Shown: piece after piece, positions 1,939 to 16,727 of the stretch
Layout of the letters: every line of letters starts with the position of its first letter
How positions within the stretch are numbered: position 1 is the stretch's first letter
Source: Sphingobacteriaceae bacterium
Lineage (GTDB): Bacteria > Bacteroidota > Bacteroidia > Sphingobacteriales > Sphingobacteriaceae
DNA: 64,000 bases
Reading direction: 5' to 3'
NCBI GenBank assembly: GCA_029266635.1
Contig: JAQSWM010000002.1
Location: 1 to 64,000, forward strand
The notes under the pieces: model-generated
Told to the model about the DNA's origin: nothing
Databases searched by the model: none
The model's input: only the letters and a program-made list of their open reading frames with translations
Made by a program: the position numbers and the translations under genes

Positions 1939-1970
1939 AAAAAAGCCCGGCCTAAGCCGGGCTTTTTTGT
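1939..1970. terminator. Bidirectional terminator between convergent genes
   Basis: A perfect 13-bp inverted repeat (1939-1951 with 1956-1968, loop ctaa) with A's on one side and T's on the other. It can end transcription of the subtilase on the + strand and of the long lipoprotein on the - strand. The - strand stop codon (1970-1972) directly abuts it. Confidence 0.9.
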
Positions 1971-4900
1971 TAAAAGAAGAATCCAGACGTTACATTGATG
2001 TACTGCCCCTCTTTGGAAAAGCCATACGATCCTGAGATAATGAACTGCCGAAATAAGTTTATCCATACGCCAGGCCCATATCCCGTGTGCCATTTACCTG
2101 ATTCGGGCAAGTCGCTGTAAACACGTCCGGCATCGAAGAATCCGGTCACGCCTATATCCCCGGTAAAAATGTAGTTTCTAAGGCTTGCCAGCTTAAGCCT
2201 AACCTCACTGTTCTCATAAAGATATGATCTGCCAGTGAAGCGGTTATTCCGATACCCCCTTAAAATTGCGTCTTCGCCTAAGCTCCATGCATTTGTTGAG
2301 TTTCCCAGCGAATTTGCCTGAAAGAAACTGTAGTCGCCGACATTATGTGCAGCGCCAATACGTATAGCATAAGTGAGCGGAAAATTGAGGTTGGGAGTAG
2401 CGTAAAAAGAAAGGTCTGACTTAAGCTGCAGATGCCGGTTTTTTTGCTGATTAAACTCGTTAAAGAAGTTGACTTCGTTTCGCCATCTAACTCCCGCAGT
2501 CGGAAAAATATCATCATCAACAAAGTCCACGTTGGCATAAGAGCGCACTGAGCCAATGCGGGTGCCTCCACTTATCTTTGATATTTCAGTAAAGGTGGGT
2601 TGGCTGGTAATGCGGCCAGGGGTTTTTAGTATTTCATAGTACTCAAAGCCCGGGCCTATACCTACCCTGAATGCCTGGGTAAATCGGTGTTGCAGATATG
2701 CCACCGACTGAAAGGTGTTAGTGCGAATACGATAGAAATCTATATTATCATTGTTGAAGTTAGTTGAATTGCCTTCGCCAAAATAGTTGAAGGTATTTTG
2801 CGGCCCACGGAATAAGCCCTGCACCAACACATCTGTATTTCTCGCGAAAAGTGACACGAAATCACCCGAATATTTCAGGGTAAGTGCATGTGTTTTAGGT
2901 GCGTAATTTCCCAGGATTGTCTGATCAAAGCTGTATGGATCTTTCTTAAATCCATAATGCCGTTTATGTAAGCCTAATCCGATAAAGATTCCATCGTCTG
3001 CCGTGATATTTATTGAAGGTACCTTGCCGGATTGGTCATAATTGAACCATCCCACGGGCTGATAGTCGTTCACCCATTCGCGTTTAGAATGTATTATGGC
3101 TGTGTTAGGACCCTCACTAATGGTATAATCATCTGTGTTATCATAGAACAAAGTGCGATTGGCGTCGGCGGTTGTGTTAATCACATCGTTTCCTTTACCA
3201 CCTACGACTCTGATCTTGACAGGGTTTGATGACGATCCTTCTACAATAACGCTGTCTTTGCCGTCAAGAGCATATAAGTTGATTTCGGATGTTTCAGTAT
3301 TTAAAAATGTTCTTTCATACAGTTTTTTATCAATCTTGTTGTCTTTGTCGAGTTTTTGAACTGTGACTTTGGTGGCATCTTTACTGCGTTCAACATGGAA
3401 AAATTCTTTTTTATCACTCCCAGCAATGGTCACTTCCTTGCTTAACACCTTGTAGTATTCACGGGCAGCATCCGGAAGCTGGTCTCGCCGGGATTTGAGC
3501 TTAGAAGTAATTTCCGCTCCTGATATTTTTGCCACTTCGGGAGGCATACGGGTTACAGCAGTTTCAATTACCTTATCAGTCAGTTTCGTTTTGACTTCAT
3601 TCGCAATATCAATCCAATCTTGTTCAGTTAGTTTGGTCAAAAGGTTCCTGTCAAGGTCTCGTGCACCAATGCCTAAATCTGCAACATTTGCAATATCCTT
3701 CTCGAAGGATTGGAAATACGGATTCAGTTTACTCACTATCCGCGGAAACAAACCGTCATACTTCACAAAAGCCTGATCGCGGTCTCTCGGTATAGGCCTA
3801 TAAATAGCGCCTTTGTCTTTCTTGAATTCTGCCCACCGCCACTGGTCTTCATGCCGGTCCCAATCTCCAATAATGATATCGAACAACCTCGATTTGAGGT
3901 ACATCCGCTGATCTACCTCATTGTCATTATCGTCTCTCAGTTTTTCATACATAGTGTTGGTGCTCACAGCATTTTTGGCATTGCCAAAAGAGCTAAAGTC
4001 CGACACATCTTCATCCGGTTTTGCCTCAATAATGCCGAGTTTGCCTCCAATTTGCTGAATGTAAGGGCCCAATAATGATGAGTAGGGCATATAAACCAAC
4101 TGCGGATTTGTATAGTAAATTCCGATTGCTCTTGCCATTGGAGGAATCATCAGGGCACCATAAGGATGGCCCGACGAAATCTGATCCTGCAAAATATCTT
4201 CGGCGAGCGTTTTCGAAAAGCCTTCCGGCAGCAATTTGCTAGGGTCTTTATCGATCAACCTGAACTGATAAATCACTTTATCTTTTCCCTGCAGCTGCAG
4301 GGATGTAGTTTGGTTTCCACCGCCCATTTTAACAGGCGTTAAGCCACCGGCGAAAGTGTTCAGATCGAGGTAGGGGACACTTACAGGCGTTGCCCATGAG
4401 TCGCGGTAATGTTCTCCAAATACCTTCCTCTTAAAATTGCCGGCTTCGTATTGTTCCCCTGCCGCGATAAACTTGACACTATCTTTGTAGCTTATTGATT
4501 TCTGCGCAAATACATTTACATCTGCTTTAGATGGATTGGCATATAGTGGAGTGCGATACATGAGTTTGCCCGTTGAACCATCGCCCTCTGGTTCCCAAAA
4601 CTCAACCCAGCATTGTCCATTATCATAGTAGTTAAGCCTCGCGAATCCCATATCCCCATGTGCAAACAGGGCATCGTTCCCTTTCACCAACGGATTGGCT
4701 TTGCTCCCTCCGCCACTCACAATGTGGCTAATGTCTTTGTAGCGGTGAAATTGAAGCCCATGCTCATGCCCCGCGGCAATAACTACGTTCTTTTCTTCAC
4801 CTAGAACCGCCAATAGTCCTCTTTTTAGCTGCTGATATTCTTTATTCGCCAAATCCTGCCGGGATATTCCATACTGGCGTAAAAGGGGATAAACTGCACC

Positions 4901-5734
4901 TATTATAGGCAATGGGATATATAAATTGTCCCTGACTAGGGTAAGCGGGAAGAGGTAATCTTTTGGTGTGTAGTAACCACCGTGATTACCATTGCTAAAT
5001 AATGGATGGTGTTCTGCAAGCAGGATGTTTTTGCCTTTATTGCGCAAGACGATGTCTTGTACCTGCTGAATTACTTCCAGGTGAGTTGATGCGCTACAAC
5101 CTTGATCAGAGTCAAGGTTTTTATCGTATTTATCAAGCCACCACTCGCTATCTAAAATAATGAGCGTTAAATCTTTATTTGGATGTAATTCTATAGGGCC
5201 TGCGCAGCCATTGCTTGGCAAAAAGACATCTGCCGAGTCAAGATATTGTTCTATAAAATCTTCTTGTCTTTTTAGGGCAGCCAGCCCACCGTCATGGCTT
5301 TTGTTCCAATCGTGGTTGCCTGGAATAAAGATCTTTAGCCCTTTAATCTCCTTTACAACATTCATCTGTTCGATAATCCTGCGTTCTTTCAGCCGTCGGT
5401 CAGAAGCTGTTGGCTCGGGCATGCCGGTTTCATAAATGTTATCGCCCAGAAATATCACAATGTCTTCCTTGCGGGATGTATTGCCGGTATCTGACGCTGA
5501 CTCGCGATGGTAAATTTGTTTCTGCAGCAGTTTCAGCGTTGGTTCCTGCTTTGAAGTGTCGGGCTTTCCCGCGTCGCCGATCAGGAAAATAGAATACTTG
5601 AGATGCAACGAATCTGGCGAATGGGCTTTCCGCCAATCCAATTCATTTTTGGCATAATATGCTTTGTGTGTGCCGCATGCTGTTATCGCAAGAAGCAAGG
5701 TCAAGAATAAGTTATATAGAACAGTTTTTTTCAT
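1970..5734 (-). CDS. Metallophosphoesterase lipoprotein with kinase-like middle and BamA/TamA-type barrel
   Basis: 1254 residues. The signal ends in a lipobox (LAITAC, Cys20). Residues ~45-385 are a calcineurin-like phosphoesterase with the usual metal ligands: GDAG (Asp53), GDN (Asp98, Asn99), GNHDW (Asn140, His141), EHHP (His242-243) and GHEHG (His323, His325). The C-terminal ~350 residues resemble an Omp85/D15 surface-antigen barrel (DDDIFPTAGVRWR, FFDAGRVYSDLP) and end in Phe, as outer-membrane barrels do. Residues ~475-665 contain GDWDRHEDQW and PIPRDRDQAF, which recall the catalytic and metal loops of atypical kinases such as CotH or HipA; that is inference only. It lies 15 bp downstream of an SdiA-regulated-like lipoprotein gene, probably in one operon. 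The substrate is unknown; the active domain probably sits at the outer membrane. Confidence 0.85.
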   Translation of the reverse strand: MKKTVLYNLFLTLLLAITACGTHKAYYAKNELDWRKAHSPDSLHLKYSIFLIGDAGKPDTSKQEPTLKLLQKQIYHRESASDTGNTSRKEDIVIFLGDNIYETGMPEPTASDRRLKERRIIEQMNVVKEIKGLKIFIPGNHDWNKSHDGGLAALKRQEDFIEQYLDSADVFLPSNGCAGPIELHPNKDLTLIILDSEWWLDKYDKNLDSDQGCSASTHLEVIQQVQDIVLRNKGKNILLAEHHPLFSNGNHGGYYTPKDYLFPLTLVRDNLYIPLPIIGAVYPLLRQYGISRQDLANKEYQQLKRGLLAVLGEEKNVVIAAGHEHGLQFHRYKDISHIVSGGGSKANPLVKGNDALFAHGDMGFARLNYYDNGQCWVEFWEPEGDGSTGKLMYRTPLYANPSKADVNVFAQKSISYKDSVKFIAAGEQYEAGNFKRKVFGEHYRDSWATPVSVPYLDLNTFAGGLTPVKMGGGNQTTSLQLQGKDKVIYQFRLIDKDPSKLLPEGFSKTLAEDILQDQISSGHPYGALMIPPMARAIGIYYTNPQLVYMPYSSLLGPYIQQIGGKLGIIEAKPDEDVSDFSSFGNAKNAVSTNTMYEKLRDDNDNEVDQRMYLKSRLFDIIIGDWDRHEDQWRWAEFKKDKGAIYRPIPRDRDQAFVKYDGLFPRIVSKLNPYFQSFEKDIANVADLGIGARDLDRNLLTKLTEQDWIDIANEVKTKLTDKVIETAVTRMPPEVAKISGAEITSKLKSRRDQLPDAAREYYKVLSKEVTIAGSDKKEFFHVERSKDATKVTVQKLDKDNKIDKKLYERTFLNTETSEINLYALDGKDSVIVEGSSSNPVKIRVVGGKGNDVINTTADANRTLFYDNTDDYTISEGPNTAIIHSKREWVNDYQPVGWFNYDQSGKVPSINITADDGIFIGLGLHKRHYGFKKDPYSFDQTILGNYAPKTHALTLKYSGDFVSLFARNTDVLVQGLFRGPQNTFNYFGEGNSTNFNNDNIDFYRIRTNTFQSVAYLQHRFTQAFRVGIGPGFEYYEILKTPGRITSQPTFTEISKISGGTRIGSVRSYANVDFVDDDIFPTAGVRWRNEVNFFNEFNQQKNRHLQLKSDLSFYATPNLNFPLTYAIRIGAAHNVGDYSFFQANSLGNSTNAWSLGEDAILRGYRNNRFTGRSYLYENSEVRLKLASLRNYIFTGDIGVTGFFDAGRVYSDLPESGKWHTGYGPGVWINLFRQFIISGSYGFSKEGQYINVTSGFFF

Positions 5735-5749: not shown

Positions 5750-6661
5750 TTAAGGAGTATAAACGACCTCTACAATATTGGCGTCGGACTTGTTCTTTCC
5801 TTCGTTTGAAACGAATAGCTTGCCTGTGGAGGGGCTAAAGGCAATGCCCTCGGGCTGGGAGAACTCTTTTCCGTTCAAGTGCATCATCTTTCGGATCTTG
5901 CCTTCGGGTGTTAAAATTGCAATGAGGTTGTTGATTGACGAGAGTAGATATATCTCACTAGTTTTAGGGTTTATCGTCAGCGCAGATGTACGGAATATTT
6001 TGTTCATGTTCTCATTGCCCAGCGCTTTTAGAAACTTTTTAGAACTTTCTTCAAGCCCATCGCCGTGGTAGTAAGCTTCGATATCTTTTAAAAGAATAGA
6101 GTAGACTGGAGTGGTGTTGAGCTTTTTGGTTGCGAGGCTGAATTCGTATATCTCTTTGGTGTCTTTTACATTATCATCAAGGCCTTTATCTTTTACCGCC
6201 AGGAGCAAACGATTTTTGGCAGCATCAAAAGCAAGGCCTTCTATATTATTTTTGCCGTTAAACTCTGTGTTTATTACCTCGGCTTTGTGATCACCGGTGC
6301 GGTAGTTTTTGATAAGATATAATTTGCCGCTGCTATCTACAACATAGATGTCTTGCCCGGCCACAGCTACATCTTCATAGTCTCCGGCTGGTCCAAATTC
6401 TTTCTTAGATGTAACTTTTTGGGCGGTTACATCATAATAATAGAGCTGCCCTTCTTCGTCTTCTATGGCTACCAGCGCGTTGCTATCTATAAATGAAATT
6501 CCGGAAATCTCCGCAAGTTCGTTAGGGACACTCATCACGGTTTTGGCGGAAGCATCGTCTGGCTGTTTACCTGTTTCTTCTGACGATTTTTGCTTTTGGC
6601 TGCAGGAGTATTGTGAAGAAAAGAGTATGGTCGCTAACAAAAGGGCTAAATATTTGTTCAT
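5750..6661 (-). CDS. SdiA-regulated-like beta-propeller lipoprotein
   Basis: 303 residues with a lipoprotein signal (Cys20 in SSQYSCSQ). The rest looks like a six-bladed propeller: repeated strands such as LAEISGISFIDSNALVAIEDE, GDYEDVAVAGQDIYVVDS and GLAFDAAKNRLLLAVKD match the SdiA-regulated family (PF06977) in my reading. The family is periplasmic or surface exposed with no proven reaction; some members resemble phytase-like or esterase-like propellers. It is the first gene of a two-gene unit with the metallophosphoesterase-barrel gene 15 bp downstream, so a phosphate-ester context is possible. The start is the ATG that gives the lipoprotein signal. Confidence 0.8.
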   Translation of the reverse strand: MNKYLALLLATILFSSQYSCSQKQKSSEETGKQPDDASAKTVMSVPNELAEISGISFIDSNALVAIEDEEGQLYYYDVTAQKVTSKKEFGPAGDYEDVAVAGQDIYVVDSSGKLYLIKNYRTGDHKAEVINTEFNGKNNIEGLAFDAAKNRLLLAVKDKGLDDNVKDTKEIYEFSLATKKLNTTPVYSILLKDIEAYYHGDGLEESSKKFLKALGNENMNKIFRTSALTINPKTSEIYLLSSINNLIAILTPEGKIRKMMHLNGKEFSQPEGIAFSPSTGKLFVSNEGKNKSDANIVEVVYTP

Positions 6662-6747: not shown

Positions 6748-7944
6748 ATGAAAAATAGCAATCCAGTAGTAAAAGGCGCTTCAGAGTATGTGTTCAACTT
6801 ATTTAAAGAGAAGTTGCCGGCAAATTATGTTTACCACAATTACAAGCACACCTATGAAACAGTTAAGGCGTGTAAGGAGCTTGCCGCTGAATATAATCTG
6901 ACAAGCCGCGACATGGAAATATTGATGCTTGCTGCCTGGTTCCATGACACCGGATATGTTGAAGCATACGATGGCCACGAAGAACATAGCGTGGTTATCA
7001 TGAAGAACTATCTAAGCGGCGAATATAGAATGGAGGCTCTTGAGGAAATTGAAGCCCTTATTTTATCAACCAAATGGGGACATACTCCTGATGGTACACT
7101 GCAGGAAATACTTCATGACGCCGACTACATTAATATTGGTAAGAAAAAGTTTGTAGAGCGGGCAGAATTGATAAGAATTGAGTGGGAGAGGTCATTAAAT
7201 AAAGTTTACACCAACGAAGAGTGGGCGGAAGAACAATTAAATTTCTTACTCAATACGTCATTTAAAACGGAAGAAGCTTTAGCCAAGTACGATGACCAGC
7301 GGGAGATAAATATCCGCTTGCAGCGGGAGCGGATTGAAGAGCTTAAAAATGAACAGCTTAAGCTTGACGCGAAACTGAATAAGAAAAATGATCCAAAGCA
7401 AAAGATAGGGAGGGGCGTGGAAACGCTTTATCGCTCTGTTTACTCTTACCATATCAATCTTACTTCGATTGCTGATAACAAAGCTCACATCATGATCAAC
7501 ATCAATACAATCATCATTTCGATTGTAATTACGCTGTTTGGTTCAGGATATACTTTTTCAGGAAACGATGGGTTTGGCCATATCCGTTTCGTTTTTCCAA
7601 TGGCGGTTTTGCTGCTTTCAAGCTTGCTAGCGGTAGTTTTCGCAGTTTTATCCGCTCGGCCGTCTGTTACATCCAAACACAAATATGAGCTAACCAACAA
7701 GACAAGCAGCGTTCTCTTCTTCGGAAACTTTGCACAATTACAGCTCAACGATTTTATAAACCGGATCAAGGATTTGAAAGAAGATAACGAGGAGCTTTAT
7801 GACAGCATGAGCATTGACCTTTATCATTTAGGTTCGGTGCTGGTGAAGAAATATCAGCTGATAAGGTGGTCGTACAATATTTTTATGTCAGGCCTGGTAT
7901 TATGTGCCCTGGGCTTTATCGGTATTGTAATATTTTCTTACTGA
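6748..7944 (+). CDS. HD-domain phosphohydrolase fused to Pycsar-type transmembrane effector domain
   Basis: 398 residues. Residues ~25-175 form an HD-family metal phosphohydrolase with ligands His34, His66-Asp67 (WFHDTGY) and Asp124 (LHDADYI). A charged coiled coil (~185-215) follows. The C-terminal half resembles the Pycsar effector/DUF5706 membrane domain: ADNKAHIMININTIIISIVI leads into TM1 (~250-266), with TM2 at ~280-302 and a final TM at ~372-397. In Pycsar antiphage systems a cyclic pyrimidine nucleotide activates such membrane effectors. Here an HD domain, which could hydrolyse a nucleotide signal, sits on the same chain. The gene overlaps the 3' end of a convergent DUF2652 cyclase-fold gene by 7 bp. 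A defence role is inference; the architecture recurs in Bacteroidota as I recall. Confidence 0.82.
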   Translation: MKNSNPVVKGASEYVFNLFKEKLPANYVYHNYKHTYETVKACKELAAEYNLTSRDMEILMLAAWFHDTGYVEAYDGHEEHSVVIMKNYLSGEYRMEALEEIEALILSTKWGHTPDGTLQEILHDADYINIGKKKFVERAELIRIEWERSLNKVYTNEEWAEEQLNFLLNTSFKTEEALAKYDDQREINIRLQRERIEELKNEQLKLDAKLNKKNDPKQKIGRGVETLYRSVYSYHINLTSIADNKAHIMININTIIISIVITLFGSGYTFSGNDGFGHIRFVFPMAVLLLSSLLAVVFAVLSARPSVTSKHKYELTNKTSSVLFFGNFAQLQLNDFINRIKDLKEDNEELYDSMSIDLYHLGSVLVKKYQLIRWSYNIFMSGLVLCALGFIGIVIFSY

Positions 7945-8552
7945 TCTGTATCGCTGTGGATCTTGATGTACTTGTATCTCACCTCGCCAATAAAGTCATA
8001 AGTTTCACAGCCTTCTTTGAATTTCGCCCAGTTAAATAGCTTCTCAGTGTTGGTGCTCCTGGTTTTCTTCAGGTAGTTCTCAGTGAACAGGATATACTCG
8101 CTATCTTTTATCTTGTTCTTTAAAAGTTTGTGAGCTATGATCACATCCTCGCCTAACAACTTAGTGCGCCCTTTGATGTTCGCTGTACTAACTATGCCGT
8201 AGTGGACAATTATCTTTAGGCCTAATTCTCCGTCGGACAAATGCTTCTCATAGTACTCTGGATGCGTTTTCTTTATCTGGGTGATGTAGTCTGTAAAAGC
8301 TTTATAAAATGTTCTGCACTGCTTTACAATTTGTCTGGCAGATGGCAAGCGCCCTGTGCGGTAGAAGAAAATGGCATCCCCCTCGATCTCTGCAATCTGC
8401 AATTTCAAGATATTGGCGTCTATTAACTTACGTAGCAAGGCAGGGATTATCTCTTTGCTGATAGAGATGTCTGCAGTTGCTATCAGTTGAGTAAAGCCGG
8501 TCAGATCGGGCACACAAAACAAAGCCGGGAACAGGTCGTCTTTTTGGTCCAT
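7938..8552 (-). CDS. DUF2652 protein, class III nucleotide cyclase-like fold
   Basis: 204 residues without signal or TM segment. The N-terminus has the class III cyclase pattern: PDLTGFTQLI carries a metal-binding Asp (Asp16) and IEGDAIFF the second (Asp59), 43 residues apart as in adenylate cyclases. Further on, the segment GEDVIIAHKL aligns with the usual VNxAARL motif but lacks the transition-state Asn and Arg (Ile and Lys instead). It may therefore be a binding domain, a cyclase with altered chemistry, or a partner that works with another subunit. Known family name: DUF2652; no proven activity that I know of. It is convergent with the HD-Pycsar effector gene and shares 7 bp with it. Confidence 0.78.
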   Translation of the reverse strand: MDQKDDLFPALFCVPDLTGFTQLIATADISISKEIIPALLRKLIDANILKLQIAEIEGDAIFFYRTGRLPSARQIVKQCRTFYKAFTDYITQIKKTHPEYYEKHLSDGELGLKIIVHYGIVSTANIKGRTKLLGEDVIIAHKLLKNKIKDSEYILFTENYLKKTRSTNTEKLFNWAKFKEGCETYDFIGEVRYKYIKIHSDTDQ

Positions 8553-9516: not shown

Positions 9517-11398
9517 CACTGCCAGAGGGGATGGAAAACCAGAATGTGGAGCCTTGATTTTCCACGCTCTCAACACCGATCTTACCGCCATGCCTAACCA
9601 CAATCTCATTTGATATATACAGCCCCAATCCCAGTCCGGAGAACTTTTGCGATTCCTGTACCCTGAAGAATCGGTCAAATATATAAGGCAGCTTGTCTTC
9701 CGCGATGCCTATGCCATAATCTGTGACCGAAATGGTGAGCTTTTCATCGTCTCTTTCTGTTTTTAAGATGATCTTCTTTCCCTGAGGGGAATATTTGATA
9801 GCGTTAGAAAGAAAGTTTGTAAGCACCTGCTCAATGCGCTCTTTATCGGCTACAACACAAGCTGAGGTATCTCCTTCCAGCAAGAGCTGATGGTTGGAAA
9901 GATTGAAGCGCACCTGATCCAGTGAATCCTGAATCACCTCATGCACTGCAAATTCAGCCATATTGAACCGCATTTTCCCTGCGTGTATTTTGGTTACATC
10001 GAGTAAATCTTCAACCAGATGTGTTAGTTTATCAATCTGCTTGTTGGCCTTAATTACGAAGTTATGGATGCCATTTTGTTCCATGTTTTTTGCACTAAGC
10101 CTTTCAACAATTTGCAAAGCGGCCTTCATGCTTGTTATGGGTGTTTTAAGTTCATGGCTGGCTATGCTCATAAACTCGTCTTTTTGCTGCATTAGTAATT
10201 TGGTTGCCTGCTGCGCCTGCTCCTGCTCGGTGATATCCGTTAATGAACCTATATATCCTTTTCCTTCCTGGCTTAACGGATTGCTTTGAGCTAGCACCCA
10301 CCTGTGTTCACCAGTATTCGATCTAATCCTAAACTTCGATGTGTACGGAATACGCTTATGGAAGCAATCCATAAATTTTTCATATTCTTTTTCGGTATCC
10401 TCCGGATGGAAAGCCGCTCCCCACCCAAGCCCGAGGCTCTGCTCGAACGACAATCCCGTAAAATCGCTCCAGCGTTTGTTGACATATGAGCAGAGGCCAT
10501 CTACACCTACTTTCCAGATCATAAATGGAGATTGATCGGCCAAATCGCGGAAGTAGTCTTCGCTGATCCTCAGCTGCTGGTTTGCGTCTTCAGTCTTTTT
10601 TCGCTCCGTAATATCTACAGAAATATTGATCGCCTGCTCAAGGCGATGATTTTCATCTCTGCTAAATACTATGGAATAAGTGTGCAGCCAGCGGTATGAA
10701 CCATCTTTGTGTTTAACGCGATACTCAAATTCCAGTATTTGATTATCGTTATAGTTCGGAAAATCGTCATTTGCTTTTTCAATCGCTTTCTGATTCTGCT
10801 CCAGGATTCGTGCTGAGTCATCCGGATGCATCAAGGTGATCATGAAGCCAAATCCTTTTTCAATAAAGAGCTGCGGAGAGTAACCCAGCATAGCCTGTGC
10901 TGTATTGTTTACATACAAATACTCACCGGTATTTACGTTAAATACCGTAACTAATGCTGGCGTAACATCAGATATCTTCTGGCTAAAATGCCTTGCGGAT
11001 TCCAATTCGTGCTGCGCTTTTTTAATCTGGGTGATATCATGCATGCTTACAACTGCGCCCAGTACCTTGCCATTTGCATCGGTTATTTGCCTGCCGCTTG
11101 AAAGCACATATTTATCGCCGTTTTGAGATTTGATGAGCATTTCGGCGTTTTCTACATTGTCGCCCTGTAAAGCCTTAAAGAGAGGGATGTCTTCACGGCG
11201 CATCAGCCCAGAACCATCAGGATAATAAAGACTGTAGTAGTTTGCCCAGTTTTCAGGCGTGATTGGTTCGAGCGGCAAGCCAATGATCTTCTCCGTTGCA
11301 GGATTAAAAAGAACCAGCCGTCCATTTTCATCGCATGCAACAATTCCATCAGCAACACTTTGCAGTATGGTTTGCAGAAAGTCCTGGCCAAATCTCAT
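9500..11398 (-). CDS. Cytosolic PAS-PAS-PAS sensor histidine kinase
   Basis: 632 residues, no signal peptide or TM segment. Three PAS folds (~5-125, ~140-265, ~280-395), the latter two followed by PAC-type ends (NISVDITERK, GSLTDITEQE), feed into a HisKA domain with phosphoacceptor His415 in SIASHELKTP. The HATPase_c domain has its N box at Asn532 (FLSNAIKYS), the G1 box DYGIGIAED, an F box (FDRFFR) and G2 box GLGLGLYISNE. It autophosphorylates and passes phosphate to a response regulator; the single-domain regulator at 8611-8982 is a candidate partner. The ligand is unknown. Its 3' end overlaps the YkvA gene by 17 bp. Confidence 0.93.
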   Translation of the reverse strand: MRFGQDFLQTILQSVADGIVACDENGRLVLFNPATEKIIGLPLEPITPENWANYYSLYYPDGSGLMRREDIPLFKALQGDNVENAEMLIKSQNGDKYVLSSGRQITDANGKVLGAVVSMHDITQIKKAQHELESARHFSQKISDVTPALVTVFNVNTGEYLYVNNTAQAMLGYSPQLFIEKGFGFMITLMHPDDSARILEQNQKAIEKANDDFPNYNDNQILEFEYRVKHKDGSYRWLHTYSIVFSRDENHRLEQAINISVDITERKKTEDANQQLRISEDYFRDLADQSPFMIWKVGVDGLCSYVNKRWSDFTGLSFEQSLGLGWGAAFHPEDTEKEYEKFMDCFHKRIPYTSKFRIRSNTGEHRWVLAQSNPLSQEGKGYIGSLTDITEQEQAQQATKLLMQQKDEFMSIASHELKTPITSMKAALQIVERLSAKNMEQNGIHNFVIKANKQIDKLTHLVEDLLDVTKIHAGKMRFNMAEFAVHEVIQDSLDQVRFNLSNHQLLLEGDTSACVVADKERIEQVLTNFLSNAIKYSPQGKKIILKTERDDEKLTISVTDYGIGIAEDKLPYIFDRFFRVQESQKFSGLGLGLYISNEIVVRHGGKIGVESVENQGSTFWFSIPSGSVTEET

Positions 11399-11474
11399 TG
11401 TCGTTGTAGGTTAAACAAAATTTTAAAAGTTTGTGTTTCCGGCCGAATGCGGGTGGCACTTCACGTTCAAACAC

Positions 11475-11482
11475 TATTTTTG
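11475..11482 (+). promoter_or_regulatory. -7 promoter box of mazG
   Basis: TATTTTTG is a perfect match to the Bacteroidota -7 consensus TAnnTTTG and lies 10 bp before the mazG ATG. I see no convincing -33 TTG at the right distance. Confidence 0.4.
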
Positions 11483-11492
11483 AATAAAAAAC

Positions 11493-12299
11493 ATGCCACG
11501 TAATATTGCCCCGCTCTCAGCCGAAACACCAGCTAATGCATTTACCCGCCTGCTTACTATCATGGATACTTTGCGTGAGCAATGCCCGTGGGACAAAAAG
11601 CAAACCCTGCAAACCCTTCGGCACTTAACCATAGAAGAAACTTATGAGCTTTCTGACGCGATATTGGAAGGTGATCTGTCGGAAATCAAAAAGGAGCTTG
11701 GAGATATCATGCTTCATCTGGTTTTCTACGCTCGCATAGCTTCCGAAACGGGTGAATTTGATATCACTGATGTGCTTAATGGGATCTGCGATAAGCTGAT
11801 AAACCGCCATCCACATATCTATGGTGATGTAGATGTGAATGATGAACAGGATGTGAAGCGCAACTGGGAGCAGATTAAGCTGAAGGAAGGAAACAAGTCT
11901 GTGCTGGCGGGCGTACCGTTGTCGCTCCCGGCCTTGGTAAAAGCATCCAGAATCCAGGAGAAAGCCCGGGGGATAGGATTTGACTGGGAAGAAAAGGGGC
12001 AGGTTTGGGAAAAAGTAGAGGAGGAGATGCAGGAGTTCAAAGACGAGTTTAATGTGTCATCTGATGCTGAGATCGATGTAGAGAAGGCTGAAGGTGAATT
12101 TGGCGATTTGTTGTTCTCGCTAATCAACTATGCCCGGTTCATCAATATAAACCCGGAAGATGCGCTCGAAAAAACCAACAAGAAATTCATAAAGCGATTT
12201 AGCTACCTGGAAGGCAAAGCCAGGGAGATGGGCAAGAATCTGAAAGATATGACGCTCGCAGAAATGGATCAATTCTGGAATGAGGCGAAAAAGGTTTAG
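11493..12299 (+). CDS. mazG: Nucleoside triphosphate pyrophosphohydrolase MazG
   Basis: 268 residues, the usual length of two-domain MazG. It hydrolyses (d)NTPs to NMP and pyrophosphate, cleaning the nucleotide pool. The N-terminal domain has EQCPWDKKQT and the metal motif EExxE...ExxD (Glu48, Glu49, Glu52, Glu68, Asp71). The second domain repeats it (EEEMQEFKDE, then EGEFGDLLFSLINYAR). The start is the ATG at 11493, 10 bp behind a TAnnTTTG box. It precedes a group of small lipoproteins and a sigma factor gene that appear functionally separate. Confidence 0.96.
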   Translation: MPRNIAPLSAETPANAFTRLLTIMDTLREQCPWDKKQTLQTLRHLTIEETYELSDAILEGDLSEIKKELGDIMLHLVFYARIASETGEFDITDVLNGICDKLINRHPHIYGDVDVNDEQDVKRNWEQIKLKEGNKSVLAGVPLSLPALVKASRIQEKARGIGFDWEEKGQVWEKVEEEMQEFKDEFNVSSDAEIDVEKAEGEFGDLLFSLINYARFININPEDALEKTNKKFIKRFSYLEGKAREMGKNLKDMTLAEMDQFWNEAKKV

Positions 12300-12340
12300 T
12301 CGCTGTAGCGTTATTGACATTTGGGGCGTAATCAGATAAA

Positions 12341-12751
12341 ATGCATTTGATGAAGTCATGTAAAACGAGGCTATTGTGCACCTTGATAGTGCTGAGCCTT
12401 CTTACGGTAGCCGGCTGCGATAAAGGCAGTAAATCAGAAGAAGACCCTTCATACTCGGTAATAACTAAGGTAGAGGGCCCAGTGTCAGCAAGTATTGGTC
12501 AGGAAATACACATCAAGGTGACCTTGGAAGGCAACAATGGCTGTGCCGTTTCAGGCGAACTTCACGAGATAGTTGCTGGTGATTCACGAACCATAACCGG
12601 GAAAATTAATTATCAGGGAACTGTATGCCCGATGATAATGGTTTATATGATCTCAGATTATAGCTTCAAAAGTACCACGCCAGGAATTTATCAACTAAAG
12701 TTCTTAAAACGCGATGGATCATACATTAATCATTCAGTAACTGTTAATTGA
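12341..12751 (+). CDS. Hypothetical lipoprotein in ECF sigma cluster
   Basis: 136 residues with a lipoprotein signal (LTVAGC, Cys26). The mature part is small and beta-rich, with strands such as EIHIKVTLEG and GIYQLKFLKRDG, like an Ig-like domain; two further Cys (in NNGCAV and GTVCPM) may form a disulfide. I do not recognise a named family. It is the first of five closely spaced genes (lipoprotein, lipoprotein, ECF sigma factor, membrane-barrel protein, lipoprotein). Confidence 0.7.
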   Translation: MHLMKSCKTRLLCTLIVLSLLTVAGCDKGSKSEEDPSYSVITKVEGPVSASIGQEIHIKVTLEGNNGCAVSGELHEIVAGDSRTITGKINYQGTVCPMIMVYMISDYSFKSTTPGIYQLKFLKRDGSYINHSVTVN

Positions 12752-12759
12752 ACGATCTT

Positions 12760-13176
12760 ATGAAAATGTCTCTTTTTTTAGCCTTGGTTTCCTTTACCAT
12801 TTTATCCTGTAAAGAAGAAAGTGTTCAACCTATTGTTGATGGCGAATATGCCGGCAAGTTCTACTATGGCTCTATGTTTGCGGGAACGCAGGAAGCTGCA
12901 GCAAACGTCAGAATAGAAAAGGGCAGGTATACATCTGCCGGAAACAGTAACCATATTCCGGCAGGCGGTTCGGGCAAGGTGGGCCGTGTTGACGATAATA
13001 TACTGCTCTTCTCGGATGAGAATGCCTGGACTGCAAACTTCGACTGGAACTTGATATTAGACGGGAAGTATTCTTTTGAAGTAAAGGGCGACAGTCTTTT
13101 TCTGGATAAAGAGTTTGATGGTAACGGCGGATTTAACCCACCGGTACTCCGATATAGACTGAAGCGCTTGAAATAA
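12760..13176 (+). CDS. Hypothetical lipoprotein in ECF sigma cluster
   Basis: 138 residues from the ATG at 12760; an in-frame TTG at 12748 overlaps the previous stop but adds only MNDL. Lipoprotein signal with Cys in FTILSCKEES. The rest (VDGEYAGKFYYGSMF, SGKVGRVDDNILLFSD, LDGKYSFEVKGDSLFL) reads like a small lipocalin-like or META-type beta barrel. No catalytic motif is visible. Only 4 bp separate it from the sigma factor gene, which suggests co-transcription. Confidence 0.65.
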   Translation: MKMSLFLALVSFTILSCKEESVQPIVDGEYAGKFYYGSMFAGTQEAAANVRIEKGRYTSAGNSNHIPAGGSGKVGRVDDNILLFSDENAWTANFDWNLILDGKYSFEVKGDSLFLDKEFDGNGGFNPPVLRYRLKRLK

Positions 13177-13180
13177 ATCA

Positions 13181-13729
13181 ATGTCCAACCTAAACGGCAT
13201 TACTGAGGAAGAGCTCATTCAGAAATGCAAAGCAGGCAATTTGAAGGATTTAGAAAAGCTATATAAGCATTTCTATGGCTACGCTATGGGCGTTGGATTC
13301 CGATATCTGGCAGATCGGGACGATGTGCTCGAAGTGGTGAACGACGCATTTATTAAAGTGTTTAAGTCAATACACACGTACAACAACACAATGTTTTTTA
13401 AGCCCTGGCTTAGAAAAGTTGTTGTGAATACAGCATTGGACCGGTATCGCAAAAATCAGCGACAAGTAGAGATAGTGGAGCTGGATCAGGCAAACGAAAT
13501 AACAGGAGGGACTTTCCAGGCTGATGATCTTACGGTCAAGGAAATTATGAAGCTACTGGATGCTTTACCTGAGCTACAACGGGTGGTTTTTAACATGTAT
13601 GAGATTGATGGATATAGCCATGAGGAAATCAGTACGATGTTAAATATACCGGCAAGTTCGTCAAGGGTGTATCTCGCGAGAGCGAAAGAAAAATTGAGAA
13701 GTGTTTTACTAAAAGCAGCGCAAATATGA
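13181..13729 (+). CDS. ECF-type RNA polymerase sigma factor
   Basis: 182 residues, the usual size of ECF sigma factors. Region 2 spans ~25-90 (DDVLEVVNDAFIKVFKSI, WLRKVVVNTALDRYRKN). Region 4 spans ~120-175 (LPELQRVVFNMYEIDGYSHE then a helix-turn-helix with SSRVYLARAKEKL). It directs core polymerase to a small regulon. Its stop overlaps the start of the downstream membrane-barrel gene (ATGA), a typical sigma/anti-sigma arrangement, and it follows the upstream lipoprotein by 4 bp. The signal is unknown. Confidence 0.93.
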   Translation: MSNLNGITEEELIQKCKAGNLKDLEKLYKHFYGYAMGVGFRYLADRDDVLEVVNDAFIKVFKSIHTYNNTMFFKPWLRKVVVNTALDRYRKNQRQVEIVELDQANEITGGTFQADDLTVKEIMKLLDALPELQRVVFNMYEIDGYSHEEISTMLNIPASSSRVYLARAKEKLRSVLLKAAQI

Positions 13730-15030
13730 GCGTGCAGGATAAACAGTTAGCTGACAACATCCGCGATGTATTTGACTCATTCGAGGATCAATCTTCGGAG
13801 AGGGGATGGGCGGAGCTGCGCAAAAAATATCCTGAAAAGAATAATCGAAAGTTTGTTTTTTGGCTGAATGGTGTTGCGTTGCTGGCCTTAGTGGGTTTGG
13901 GGATTTGGTATTATTCATGGGCTCCAGAATCAGGGCCTAAAGCGAGAACTCGAACTAAAATTGGAAGGGTGGATAGCCTCCCGCTCCAGTCACAGAGCAC
14001 TCCCGAAATTGGCATGACCGATAGTAAAAATGTAAATTTTGAGCGGGAGATTGTGAAAAAACCTGCAGGGGTTTTAGAGCTTAATTCAACTCAACAAAAT
14101 GCTCCTTCAACCATTAGTACAAATGAGATGGACAAGCCGGTACCTTTGCCTCGTTCAACCGAAATCTCAGATGCCACCTCTCAGGCAGGCTCAACCCTTG
14201 CAGCTAAGCCGCCGATTAAAATGAAGGAGAATTCTGAGGAACCTGCAAGAATAGAACCTGTTAATTCCGGATCATCATCTGTAAACGTGGTTATAGATAC
14301 CGTCGCCTTGAGAGATAAATATCTTGATAAAGGATCATCAACTTCATTGTTGCCGGATACAACCTTCAAAGCCGATTCAACGCGGAGGCGCTTGGAACAG
14401 CAAATAAAAAAGAAAGGCGAGTTCAGCGTTTACGTTTCAGGATATTACAACTTCACCTCAGATGGGCCCGGAACTTACAACGCCGGAGCTGGGGTAGGCT
14501 ATGAGTTGCCCGTCTTTGCAAAGCTCAGGCTTAGCCCAGGCATCGCCCTTCGGCCAGCACATTTCCATTTTGACGGCGATATCCCAAGTACATATTCCGA
14601 TAAGGTTTCCTTGCCCCAACAGAGCTCTGTGTCAACTAATGGAAATGGCAATATAAACTCTGTGGACGCGAGATTGCTTGCGCTCGACATTCCCTTAAAC
14701 CTGGCATATCAATTTAGGTCTAATTCTCAAATGTCTTTAGCCGCAGGAATAAGCTCCTACATCTTTTTAAGTGAGAGATACGCTTATAATGTCTTTGATC
14801 CTGCCCAAACCCCTGTTGTACGAACCTCTTTGCAGAAATTCAACGGCACAAATATTGCGGCATCCCTGAACTTGCTGTCAAGTTTTGTATTGAGGTTAAA
14901 TGGTAGCGAGGGTATTTCCGTAGAGCCCTTTATTAAAATACCTTTAAGAGGCTTAGGCAAAAAGAATATTTTATTTGGATATGGAGGCGTGAACTTGAAA
15001 CTAATTATTCCAAGTGCCGTACAACGGTAA
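13726..15030 (+). CDS. Single-TM protein with C-terminal outer-membrane barrel-like domain, candidate anti-sigma partner
   Basis: 434 residues. The N-terminal ~42 residues are cytoplasmic and charged (ERGWAELRKKYPEKNNRK) and precede one TM helix (~43-65). A low-complexity Ser/Thr/Pro-rich linker (~66-235) follows. The C-terminal ~190 residues show amphipathic strands (FSVYVSGYYNFTSDGPGTY, AGAGVGYELPVFAKLRLSPG, LDIPLNLAYQFRSNSQMSLA) like an OmpA-type or PorT-like barrel. Start overlaps the sigma stop by 4 bp, so translation is coupled. By position the short N-terminus may bind the sigma factor; no zinc-binding anti-sigma motif is seen. The protein could reach from inner to outer membrane, which would be unusual. 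Confidence 0.75.
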   Translation: MSVQDKQLADNIRDVFDSFEDQSSERGWAELRKKYPEKNNRKFVFWLNGVALLALVGLGIWYYSWAPESGPKARTRTKIGRVDSLPLQSQSTPEIGMTDSKNVNFEREIVKKPAGVLELNSTQQNAPSTISTNEMDKPVPLPRSTEISDATSQAGSTLAAKPPIKMKENSEEPARIEPVNSGSSSVNVVIDTVALRDKYLDKGSSTSLLPDTTFKADSTRRRLEQQIKKKGEFSVYVSGYYNFTSDGPGTYNAGAGVGYELPVFAKLRLSPGIALRPAHFHFDGDIPSTYSDKVSLPQQSSVSTNGNGNINSVDARLLALDIPLNLAYQFRSNSQMSLAAGISSYIFLSERYAYNVFDPAQTPVVRTSLQKFNGTNIAASLNLLSSFVLRLNGSEGISVEPFIKIPLRGLGKKNILFGYGGVNLKLIIPSAVQR

Positions 15031-15083
15031 ATACTGAAAATTAAGTATTGTGTAGTCCTTTCAAAGGGCGCTTATTTGTTATA

Positions 15084-15506
15084 ATGAACCAATTATCTAA
15101 AATTAGAATCACTGCATTAGTAGCAGTTATTTTAGCACTTGGCGCATGCCAAAAGGAAAAACAAGATACTGTTGTACGTAGCAGTTTCGATTCCGCATTT
15201 CAATTAGCCGTGTCACAGACCGCCCTTGTTTCTTCCAATTCAGAGCAGTTGTCTATAGAAGCTAAGTACATAAACGATATGCGGTGCAGCACCTGTAGTG
15301 ATCCCGGAAACGTATTGGTGAGAGTGGTGGTTTCAAATTTGAAAGATGCTGTTTCTGAAACTACTTTAAATATTGGCAACTTTAATGGCGAAGTGCATCA
15401 AATAGATACAGTTACAGTAGACCTAAAAGGACATGCATATAAACTCATTTTGCGAAATGTTAGTGCAGAGAGAAAAGCGGAGTTCATGGTTCGAAAGCTG
15501 GATTGA
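15084..15506 (+). CDS. Hypothetical lipoprotein in ECF sigma cluster
   Basis: 140 residues from the ATG at 15084; an open TTG start at 15048 would put 12 non-signal-like residues first. Lipoprotein signal with Cys in ILALGACQKE. The mature domain carries NDMRCSTCSDPGNVLVRV, reminiscent of a small beta-domain with a conserved Cys pair found in other Bacteroidota lipoproteins. No enzyme motif is seen. It lies 53 bp behind the membrane-barrel gene and ends directly against the convergent permease gene. Confidence 0.7.
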   Translation: MNQLSKIRITALVAVILALGACQKEKQDTVVRSSFDSAFQLAVSQTALVSSNSEQLSIEAKYINDMRCSTCSDPGNVLVRVVVSNLKDAVSETTLNIGNFNGEVHQIDTVTVDLKGHAYKLILRNVSAERKAEFMVRKLD

Positions 15507-16727
15507 TTATTTAAAAGCAATTGCTTTCACCGGTGTTATCCGCGTTACCAGCATTGAAGGGATCAGCAAAACCAACAAACATACCAGCAGCGTTCCCAGG
15601 TTTAGGAGCAGGATATCTGTCAAATTAAATTCTACGGGGACGTAACTAATAAAGTAAGATGCCGGATCCAGTTGAAAGATGTGTGTTGTTTTTTCAAGCA
15701 CGCCCAGCCCAATCCCGAGCAAATTACCCAACAGCAGACCGAATCCAATCAGATAGGCAGCATTATAAAGGAATACTTTTTGGATCTCCCAATTATTACT
15801 TCCCAACGCCTTGAAAATGCCGATCATGTTTGTCCGTTCCAGGATAATGATGAGCAGCGCAGAGATCATGTTGATCACGGCTACCGCCATCATTAAAATG
15901 ATAAGTACCTGAACGTTGGTATCCAGCAGCGACAGCCATTCGAAGATGTTCGGGTAATACTCCCGGATAGTGTAGGATTTTAGGCTCAGTCCTAAATTAT
16001 CGTAAACCTTTGCCCCGAGCGCATCCAAGCGGTTGAAATCTTTTATGCGAACCTCGTACCCGCCAACTTCGCCCCCCTCCCATTTATTCAGCCGCCGTAC
16101 AAGCGAAAGGTCACCAATAACATAAATCTTATCGATATCCTCTATCCCGAGGTCGTAAATTCCCACTATCTCGAACTTGCGTTTTTTAAGCGGTTCCTGA
16201 ACAAAGTACATCAGGAAGTCATCGCCCACCTTTAACCTAAGCCTATTGGCGGTGTATTGCGATATCAATATCTGCCGGGTGGCTTTTGTGCTATCGGAAA
16301 AGTCCATAACATGGCCTGCAACCAGGATAGTTTTGAAATATTCCCAATTGTATGTTTTGTCCACTCCCTTCAGCACCACGCCCTCCACTTCATTGTTGGC
16401 ATTGATGATACCCGGTTTGTCGGCTACTGGCTGCAGGTATTCTACTCCTTTAATCGACTTTATTTTGCGGATACTATCAGCGCTGATCCTGATCGGGCTA
16501 TTTTCGTATGATGCGTTGAGATCGTATTTGCGGATGATTATGTCTCCGGCGAAGCCCCGTATCTTTTCCCTGATCTCGGTTTTGTAGCCTTTCATGATGG
16601 CTATCGACAAAATCATCACGGCCAGCCCCAGCATTATGCCAAGAATCGCTATGCGAACACTCAGTTTGGAGAAAGTGCGTTCAGATTTTAAGGTGATTCG
16701 ACGGGCAACAAAGACGGGGAGGTTCAA
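15507..16727 (-). CDS. LolC/LolE-like ABC transporter permease (FtsX/MacB family)
   Basis: 406 residues. One TM helix near the N-terminus (AILGIMLGLAVMILSIAIM, ~26-46) is followed by a ~200-residue periplasmic MacB_PCD domain and three C-terminal TM helices of the FtsX permease core (~270-400). Such proteins release lipoproteins from the inner membrane or move other substrates with a LolD-type ATPase; no ATPase gene is next to it. The start is probably TTG at 16727: there is no ATG nearby in frame and an in-frame stop lies ~20 bp upstream. Confidence 0.85.
   Translation of the reverse strand: MNLPVFVARRITLKSERTFSKLSVRIAILGIMLGLAVMILSIAIMKGYKTEIREKIRGFAGDIIIRKYDLNASYENSPIRISADSIRKIKSIKGVEYLQPVADKPGIINANNEVEGVVLKGVDKTYNWEYFKTILVAGHVMDFSDSTKATRQILISQYTANRLRLKVGDDFLMYFVQEPLKKRKFEIVGIYDLGIEDIDKIYVIGDLSLVRRLNKWEGGEVGGYEVRIKDFNRLDALGAKVYDNLGLSLKSYTIREYYPNIFEWLSLLDTNVQVLIILMMAVAVINMISALLIIILERTNMIGIFKALGSNNWEIQKVFLYNAAYLIGFGLLLGNLLGIGLGVLEKTTHIFQLDPASYFISYVPVEFNLTDILLLNLGTLLVCLLVLLIPSMLVTRITPVKAIAFK

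Follow-up and report, generated by a model that had tools for sequence, protein, structure and literature searches.

We favor, on balance, reading the product of one Sphingobacteriaceae bacterium gene as a putative outer-membrane lipoprotein in which an exported kinase-fold core of the CotH/PI4K-II/HipA type sits on an Omp85 barrel, carries an N-terminal purple-acid-phosphatase-like module, and serves polyphosphate/phosphate metabolism. The gene lies on contig JAQSWM010000002.1, within the 64,000-nucleotide stretch that was analyzed (positions 1 to 64,000; ‘the window’). Its open reading frame occupies positions 1970–5734 of the minus strand, begins with ATG, contains no internal stop, and encodes 1254 amino acids ending in TSGFFF. 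The gene and its parts are as follows.

1970–5734, minus strand: whole gene, a 1254-residue lipoprotein with phosphatase, kinase-fold domain, beta linker and Omp85 barrel (open reading frame, Pfam, models)
5675–5734, minus strand: signal peptide with lipobox AITA-C20, residues 1–20 (sequence)
4550–5587, minus strand: purple-acid-phosphatase-type calcineurin-like domain, residues 50–395 (Pfam PF00149; fold match to 1ute, Z 24.8; ligand residues)
3440–4381, minus strand: predicted kinase-fold domain, residues 452–765 (AlphaFold2, Foldseek and a second aligner; conserved K496 and E570)
3833–3868, minus strand: predicted catalytic loop GDWDRHEDQWRW, residues 623–634, with D624, D626 and Q631 (conservation; CotH/HipA register)
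3767–3796, minus strand: predicted metal loop PIPRDRDQAF, residues 647–656, with D651 and D653 (conservation; CotH register)
3083–3436, minus strand: beta-rich linker between kinase and barrel, residues 767–884 (predicted models)
1973–3034, minus strand: 16-strand Omp85 barrel, residues 901–1254, with LRGY motif and C-terminal Phe (Pfam PF01103; NF047779 below cut-off; fold match to 8xnb, Z 26.0)

Pfam assigned Metallophos to residues 50–261 (E = 5e-7) and Omp85 to residues 980–1227 (E = 6e-7), with no match between them even at E = 10. An NCBIfam scan of the protein returned an Omp85 model below its cut-off and rows at chance level, and the middle segment had no match. The open reading frame and Pfam assignments agree with an initial annotation, made from the sequence alone, which had described a single lipoprotein joining a phosphoesterase with complete calcineurin-type motifs, a kinase-like segment and an Omp85/D15-like C-terminus ending in Phe. 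The motifs GDWDRHEDQW and PIPRDRDQAF lie where that annotation placed them, and its numbering of D626, D651 and D653 is correct. A match of the lipoprotein in PADLOC was short and weak (E = 0.0099) and was taken as chance.

The middle domain has a predicted kinase fold

The initial annotation had likened the middle segment, residues 475–670, to atypical kinases and proposed structure prediction followed by a search of kinase-like folds. An alignment of 83 related segments served as input for an AlphaFold2 model of residues 405–900 (predicted local distance difference test, pLDDT, 91.6; predicted template modeling score, pTM, 0.92). Searched with Foldseek against solved structures, this model best matched the Helicobacter pylori kinase CtkA (E = 6e-7), followed by HipA, PI4K-II alpha and bacterial Ser/Thr kinases. 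A second aligner matched, over residues 452–765, PI4K-II beta (Z 15.1, 246 aligned residues, 4.2 Å), CotH (5jd9; Z 14.7, 255 aligned residues, 4.0 Å), CtkA (Z 13.8) and HipA (Z 11.6). The modeled region has the two lobes of a kinase fold, with both motifs on the catalytic and metal loops. The proposed likeness to kinases was thus borne out by the model, the proposed extent was not – the predicted domain is larger, spanning approximately residues 452–765. A reading of residues 475–670 as POTRA or barrel was ruled out by the predicted model and its kinase matches.

Sequence comparisons were less direct. Neither the CotH model PF08757 nor the HipA model PF07804 matched the protein at E ≤ 10 or anything in its own genome, and a sequence search against solved structures gave nothing useful. 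Profile–profile comparison scored weakly for CotH (E = 0.008) and HipA (E = 0.25), as did CotH compared with HipA (E = 0.003). In these weakly scoring alignments, DWDRHEDQ falls on the CotH catalytic loop and in register with HipA NTDDHLKN, and PRDRDQAF falls on the CotH metal loop ILWDVNETF. Because the CotH and HipA profile scores stay weak, the kinase assignment rests on the fold, and because the two Pfam models fail to match, the modeled segment is best described as a separate family sharing the CotH/HipA fold. Its resemblance to PI4K-II is one of fold, not of family.

Predicted active-site residues are conserved

Conservation was scored in several sets of relatives. Thirty-four were gathered by whole-protein similarity, and a phylum sample of 148 genomes yielded 55 with the kinase domain (70 matches, from which 69 proteins were read and the weak match G091 was left out); neither the 34-row nor the 69-row set was selected by motif. 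Another set, of 80 loci, was retrieved by patterns that included DWDRHxDQ or PRDRD, which biases the counts over 83 rows.

Among the 34 relatives, K496, D651 and D653 are kept in all 34, and E570, D624, D626 and Q631 in 33 each, which places the apparent conservation of both loop motifs far beyond chance. The residues expected of a kinase – the beta3 lysine K496, the catalytic D626 with a Gln at +5 (Q631), and the metal-binding D653 – are all present in the window protein. The full heptad K496/E570/D624/D626/Q631/D651/D653 is intact in 56/69 proteins of the phylum sample. Thirteen depart from it, several of them clearly degenerate, and the family therefore includes pseudokinases. Some changes are conservative (Asn at 624 in a paralog from the same genome; Asn at 631 in L148); others fall at E570 (L175, L177) or D626 (L157, L180.18), and the degenerate members are L149, L151, L154, L155, L156, L158 and L165.2. 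In the motif-biased set, D626 is Gly in 5/83 rows. Two loci, L108 and L157, share an identical kinase-site pattern, KEDGNDD, in which D626 is replaced by Gly.

The kinase rather than the phosphatase appears to be the core

A full-length model (residues 55–1254; pLDDT 86.5, pTM 0.79) and the motifs D54, GDNIY (97–101), GNHDW (139–143), HH (242–243) and GHEH (322–325) indicate that the N-terminal module is purple-acid-phosphatase-like. Its predicted fold matches mammalian purple acid phosphatase 1ute (Z 24.8, 258 aligned residues, 21% identity), and the ligand set D54/D98/Y101/N140/H242/H323/H325 is present across all five blocks, including the tyrosine of the GDxxY motif, which we take to be the purple acid phosphatase type.

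We scored these ligands in 58 fused rows (the window protein and 57 relatives). Departures occur in 16/58; one of these, L120, starts late and is uninformative, leaving 15 altered phosphatases, some of which differ only in the tyrosine or in a single His of the HH pair. Of the fused rows, 57/58 keep the whole kinase heptad, as do 14 of the 15 rows with altered phosphatase ligands. The exception, L108, combines an altered kinase site with lost phosphatase ligands, and both of its enzymes look dead from their sequences.

Domain architecture points the same way. The 85 related open reading frames at 80 named-genome loci comprise 58 with phosphatase, kinase and barrel, 20 with kinase and barrel, and 7 with kinase only, some of the last being cut by contig ends. 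In the phylum sample, 39 of the 69 proteins have all three parts, 22 have kinase and barrel, and 8 have kinase only, such that in 30/69 the chain that carries the kinase has no phosphatase. Two paralogs, one kinase-barrel and one a phosphatase by itself, are encoded on other contigs of the genome of the window. In G007, and at loci from Ignavibacteria and Longimicrobiaceae, the phosphatase has its own gene. The tree excluded two short rows as well as rows sharing an identical stretch. The kinase is conserved, whereas many relatives lack the phosphatase or have an altered one; as judged from sequence, the kinase is therefore the core of the protein. The balanced phosphatase-plus-kinase pair envisaged by the initial annotation is accordingly doubtful.

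The enzymatic domains probably face the periplasm

The predicted barrel has 16 strands and resembles BamA and TamA (Z 24–26); together with the Pfam match, this places it in the Omp85 superfamily. Pfam found no POTRA in the protein, the fold of linker 767–884 not having been searched alone. The N-terminus of an Omp85 barrel is on the periplasmic side. Unless the barrel itself exports them, the phosphatase and kinase domains would therefore be expected on that side as well, and they probably face the periplasm rather than the cell surface, where the initial annotation had placed them. A hydrophobic or lipobox N-terminus is present in 67/69 proteins of the phylum sample, including 8/8 without a barrel, suggesting that barrel-less kinases are still exported.

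Three relatives, L150, L152 and L153 (429, 429 and 426 amino acids), carry no domain other than the kinase, preceded by an N-terminal membrane anchor. In one genome (L180), three kinase-only genes are clustered, at least one of them with a lipobox.

The family is recurrently linked to polyphosphate and phosphate genes

The family is recurrently linked to a phytase-like lipoprotein, an HD-PycTM protein and, for part of the family and in several phyla, polyphosphate kinase 1 (PPK1). The first two are also neighbors of the lipoprotein gene in the window, as is an S8 subtilase.

5750–6661, minus strand: next upstream gene, an SdiA-regulated/phytase-like lipoprotein (Pfam PF06977, PF13449)
6748–7944, plus strand: HD and PycTM membrane protein (Pfam PF01966, PF18967)
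310–1920: S8 subtilase adjoining the lipoprotein gene, an adjacency shared mostly by close relatives

Within four genes at 113 loci, we counted HD-PycTM proteins 55 times, phytase-like lipoproteins 43, PPK1 25, S8 peptidases 12, His phosphatases 10 and DUF2652 9; these counts keep doubly covered places, such as L024 and L045. PP_kinase_C is present in 24/25 of the neighboring PPK1 genes. The same-strand order PPK1, phytase-like gene, kinase gene, GAF-type protein recurs at L014 and L016–L019, and L098 has the full set (GAF, PPK1, phytase-like, kinase gene, HD-PycTM). At L089, a separate phosphatase gene is followed by the kinase gene and then PPK1. At L034, a single 1856-amino-acid open frame (10998–16565) encodes PPK1 and then the whole phosphatase-kinase-barrel protein, which may be a real fusion or reflect a lost stop codon or sequence error.

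PPK1 occurs in 136/148 genomes of the phylum sample, and so its presence alone says little. PPK1 lies within 20 kb in at least 17 of the 55 kinase-bearing genomes, compared with approximately 0.9 expected, and these cases span 6 families. Kinase-barrel genes without the phosphatase are also found near PPK1 (L037, L041, L138, L163), and the link is therefore with the kinase. The kinase-only gene at L150 lies approximately 6 kb from PPK1.

Stand-alone phosphatase paralogs adjoin genes for DAGK-type lipid kinases at 4/9 loci (L003, L026, L027, L028), all in one family.

Proposed function and alternative readings

In the reading that we favor, the phosphatase and kinase domains would both be periplasmic. 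The kinase domain would phosphorylate a protein, lipid or glycan of the envelope, the phosphatase would free phosphate from that compound or a related one, and the module would serve polyphosphate/phosphate metabolism. Several observations weigh against this proposal. The profile scores fall below any usual threshold, 13/69 proteins depart from the heptad, and the periplasm is not known to contain adenosine triphosphate (ATP). Twelve of the 17 genomes with PPK1 nearby belong to one family, with a gap of 11–14 kb, and hence represent one lineage; up to 38 of the 55 kinase-bearing genomes have no PPK1 within 20 kb among the matches listed. In the genome of the window, the single PPK1 match (G000:C13:86509) is approximately 41 kb from a paralog, on a different contig from the lipoprotein gene.

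A tentative alternative, somewhat unlikely in our estimate, is that the protein is an envelope lipid or inositol-phosphate kinase/phosphatase rather than a protein kinase. PI4K-II ties with CotH as top fold match (Z 15.1 versus 14.7), the phytase-like lipoprotein recurs as a neighbor, and lone phosphatase paralogs adjoin DAGK-type genes. However, the substrate cannot be read from fold rank, the phytase-like label comes from a weak Pfam match, and the DAGK neighbors are those of the paralog rather than of the lipoprotein gene.

It is unlikely that the kinase fold has no activity and serves as a pseudokinase scaffold, holding the phosphatase to the barrel or gating it, with the phosphatase as the working enzyme. 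The lack of known periplasmic ATP would fit such a scaffold, as would the glycine at 626 and the degenerate heptads of kinase-barrel members such as L149, L151, L154, L155 and L156. Fused rows nevertheless keep the kinase heptad almost without exception (57/58) and more often have altered phosphatase ligands (15/58), and a scaffold for the phosphatase sits poorly with the 30/69 proteins that lack one on the same chain.

We consider it improbable that the protein is principally an Omp85 assembly or secretion factor whose enzymes are passengers or regulators of the barrel, as in T5d-like surface display. The barrel matches BamA/TamA, and the published account of PlpD-type Omp85 fusions describes display of an enzyme (PMC4104836). 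Yet Pfam gives no POTRA match, members without a barrel exist and still appear to be exported, and the neighbors are phosphate/polyphosphate genes rather than assembly factors.

More doubtful still is the proposal that these kinase-fold proteins are extracytoplasmic phosphotransferases using polyphosphate, from the neighboring PPK1, in place of ATP; such a donor would account for kinase activity in the periplasm. That the kinase resemblance is a chance effect of two short motifs can hardly be right: the segment matches no Pfam or NCBIfam model, but its high-confidence structural model matches four kinase families over the whole domain, and the Lys, catalytic and metal residues are conserved.

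If the domain is active, several bacterial phyla carry a previously unlabeled kinase outside the cytoplasm, often beside polyphosphate genes. Both the phosphate donor of an exported bacterial kinase and the connection of polyphosphate with envelope phosphorylation would then become testable.

Relationship to known systems

The initial annotation had regarded a phosphatase plus a kinase on one cell-surface chain as new, but the phosphatase–Omp85 fusion was described in 2014 as the Omp85 ‘Metallo’ subfamily (Heinz and Lithgow, PMC4104836). As described there, PF00149 lies N-terminal to an Omp85 barrel, and these are very likely the same proteins. The main text of that paper reads PF00149 as a metalloprotease, does not contain the word kinase, and reports conservation at genus level only, whereas the relatives found here span several phyla. 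The published protease reading of the ‘Metallo’ group is corrected by our analysis. We found no description of the kinase domain in open-licence PubMed Central literature, subscription papers being outside that scope; the KINtaro kinase-like database, as its paper outlines it (PMC10870513), could list it. Only the kinase domain thus appears to be new.

Among known kinases, CotH (PF08757) shares the predicted fold over approximately 255 residues, with catalytic and metal loops in register. Unlike CotH, the lipoprotein has no PF08757 match, is fused to a phosphatase and barrel, and carries a D-W-D-R-H-x-D-Q-W-x-W signature. PI4K-II, CtkA and HipA share the fold, including a HipA-like Asp to Gln/Asn spacing, but the lipoprotein lacks a PF07804 match and has an export-type N-terminus. 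The phosphatase resembles mammalian ACP5-type purple acid phosphatase in fold, GDxxY tyrosine and other ligands, but belongs to an outer-membrane fusion. The barrel is like that of BamA and TamA, but here the enzymes and beta linker occupy the usual place of POTRA.

A possible Pycsar-like gene pair

In the window, a DUF2652 gene (7938–8552, minus strand) overlaps the HD and PycTM gene tail to tail. The DUF2652 product presumably resembles a nucleotide cyclase domain, and the two genes could be a Pycsar-like pair. PADLOC matches the HD and PycTM protein, which is of the Pycsar effector type, but not its DUF2652 partner.

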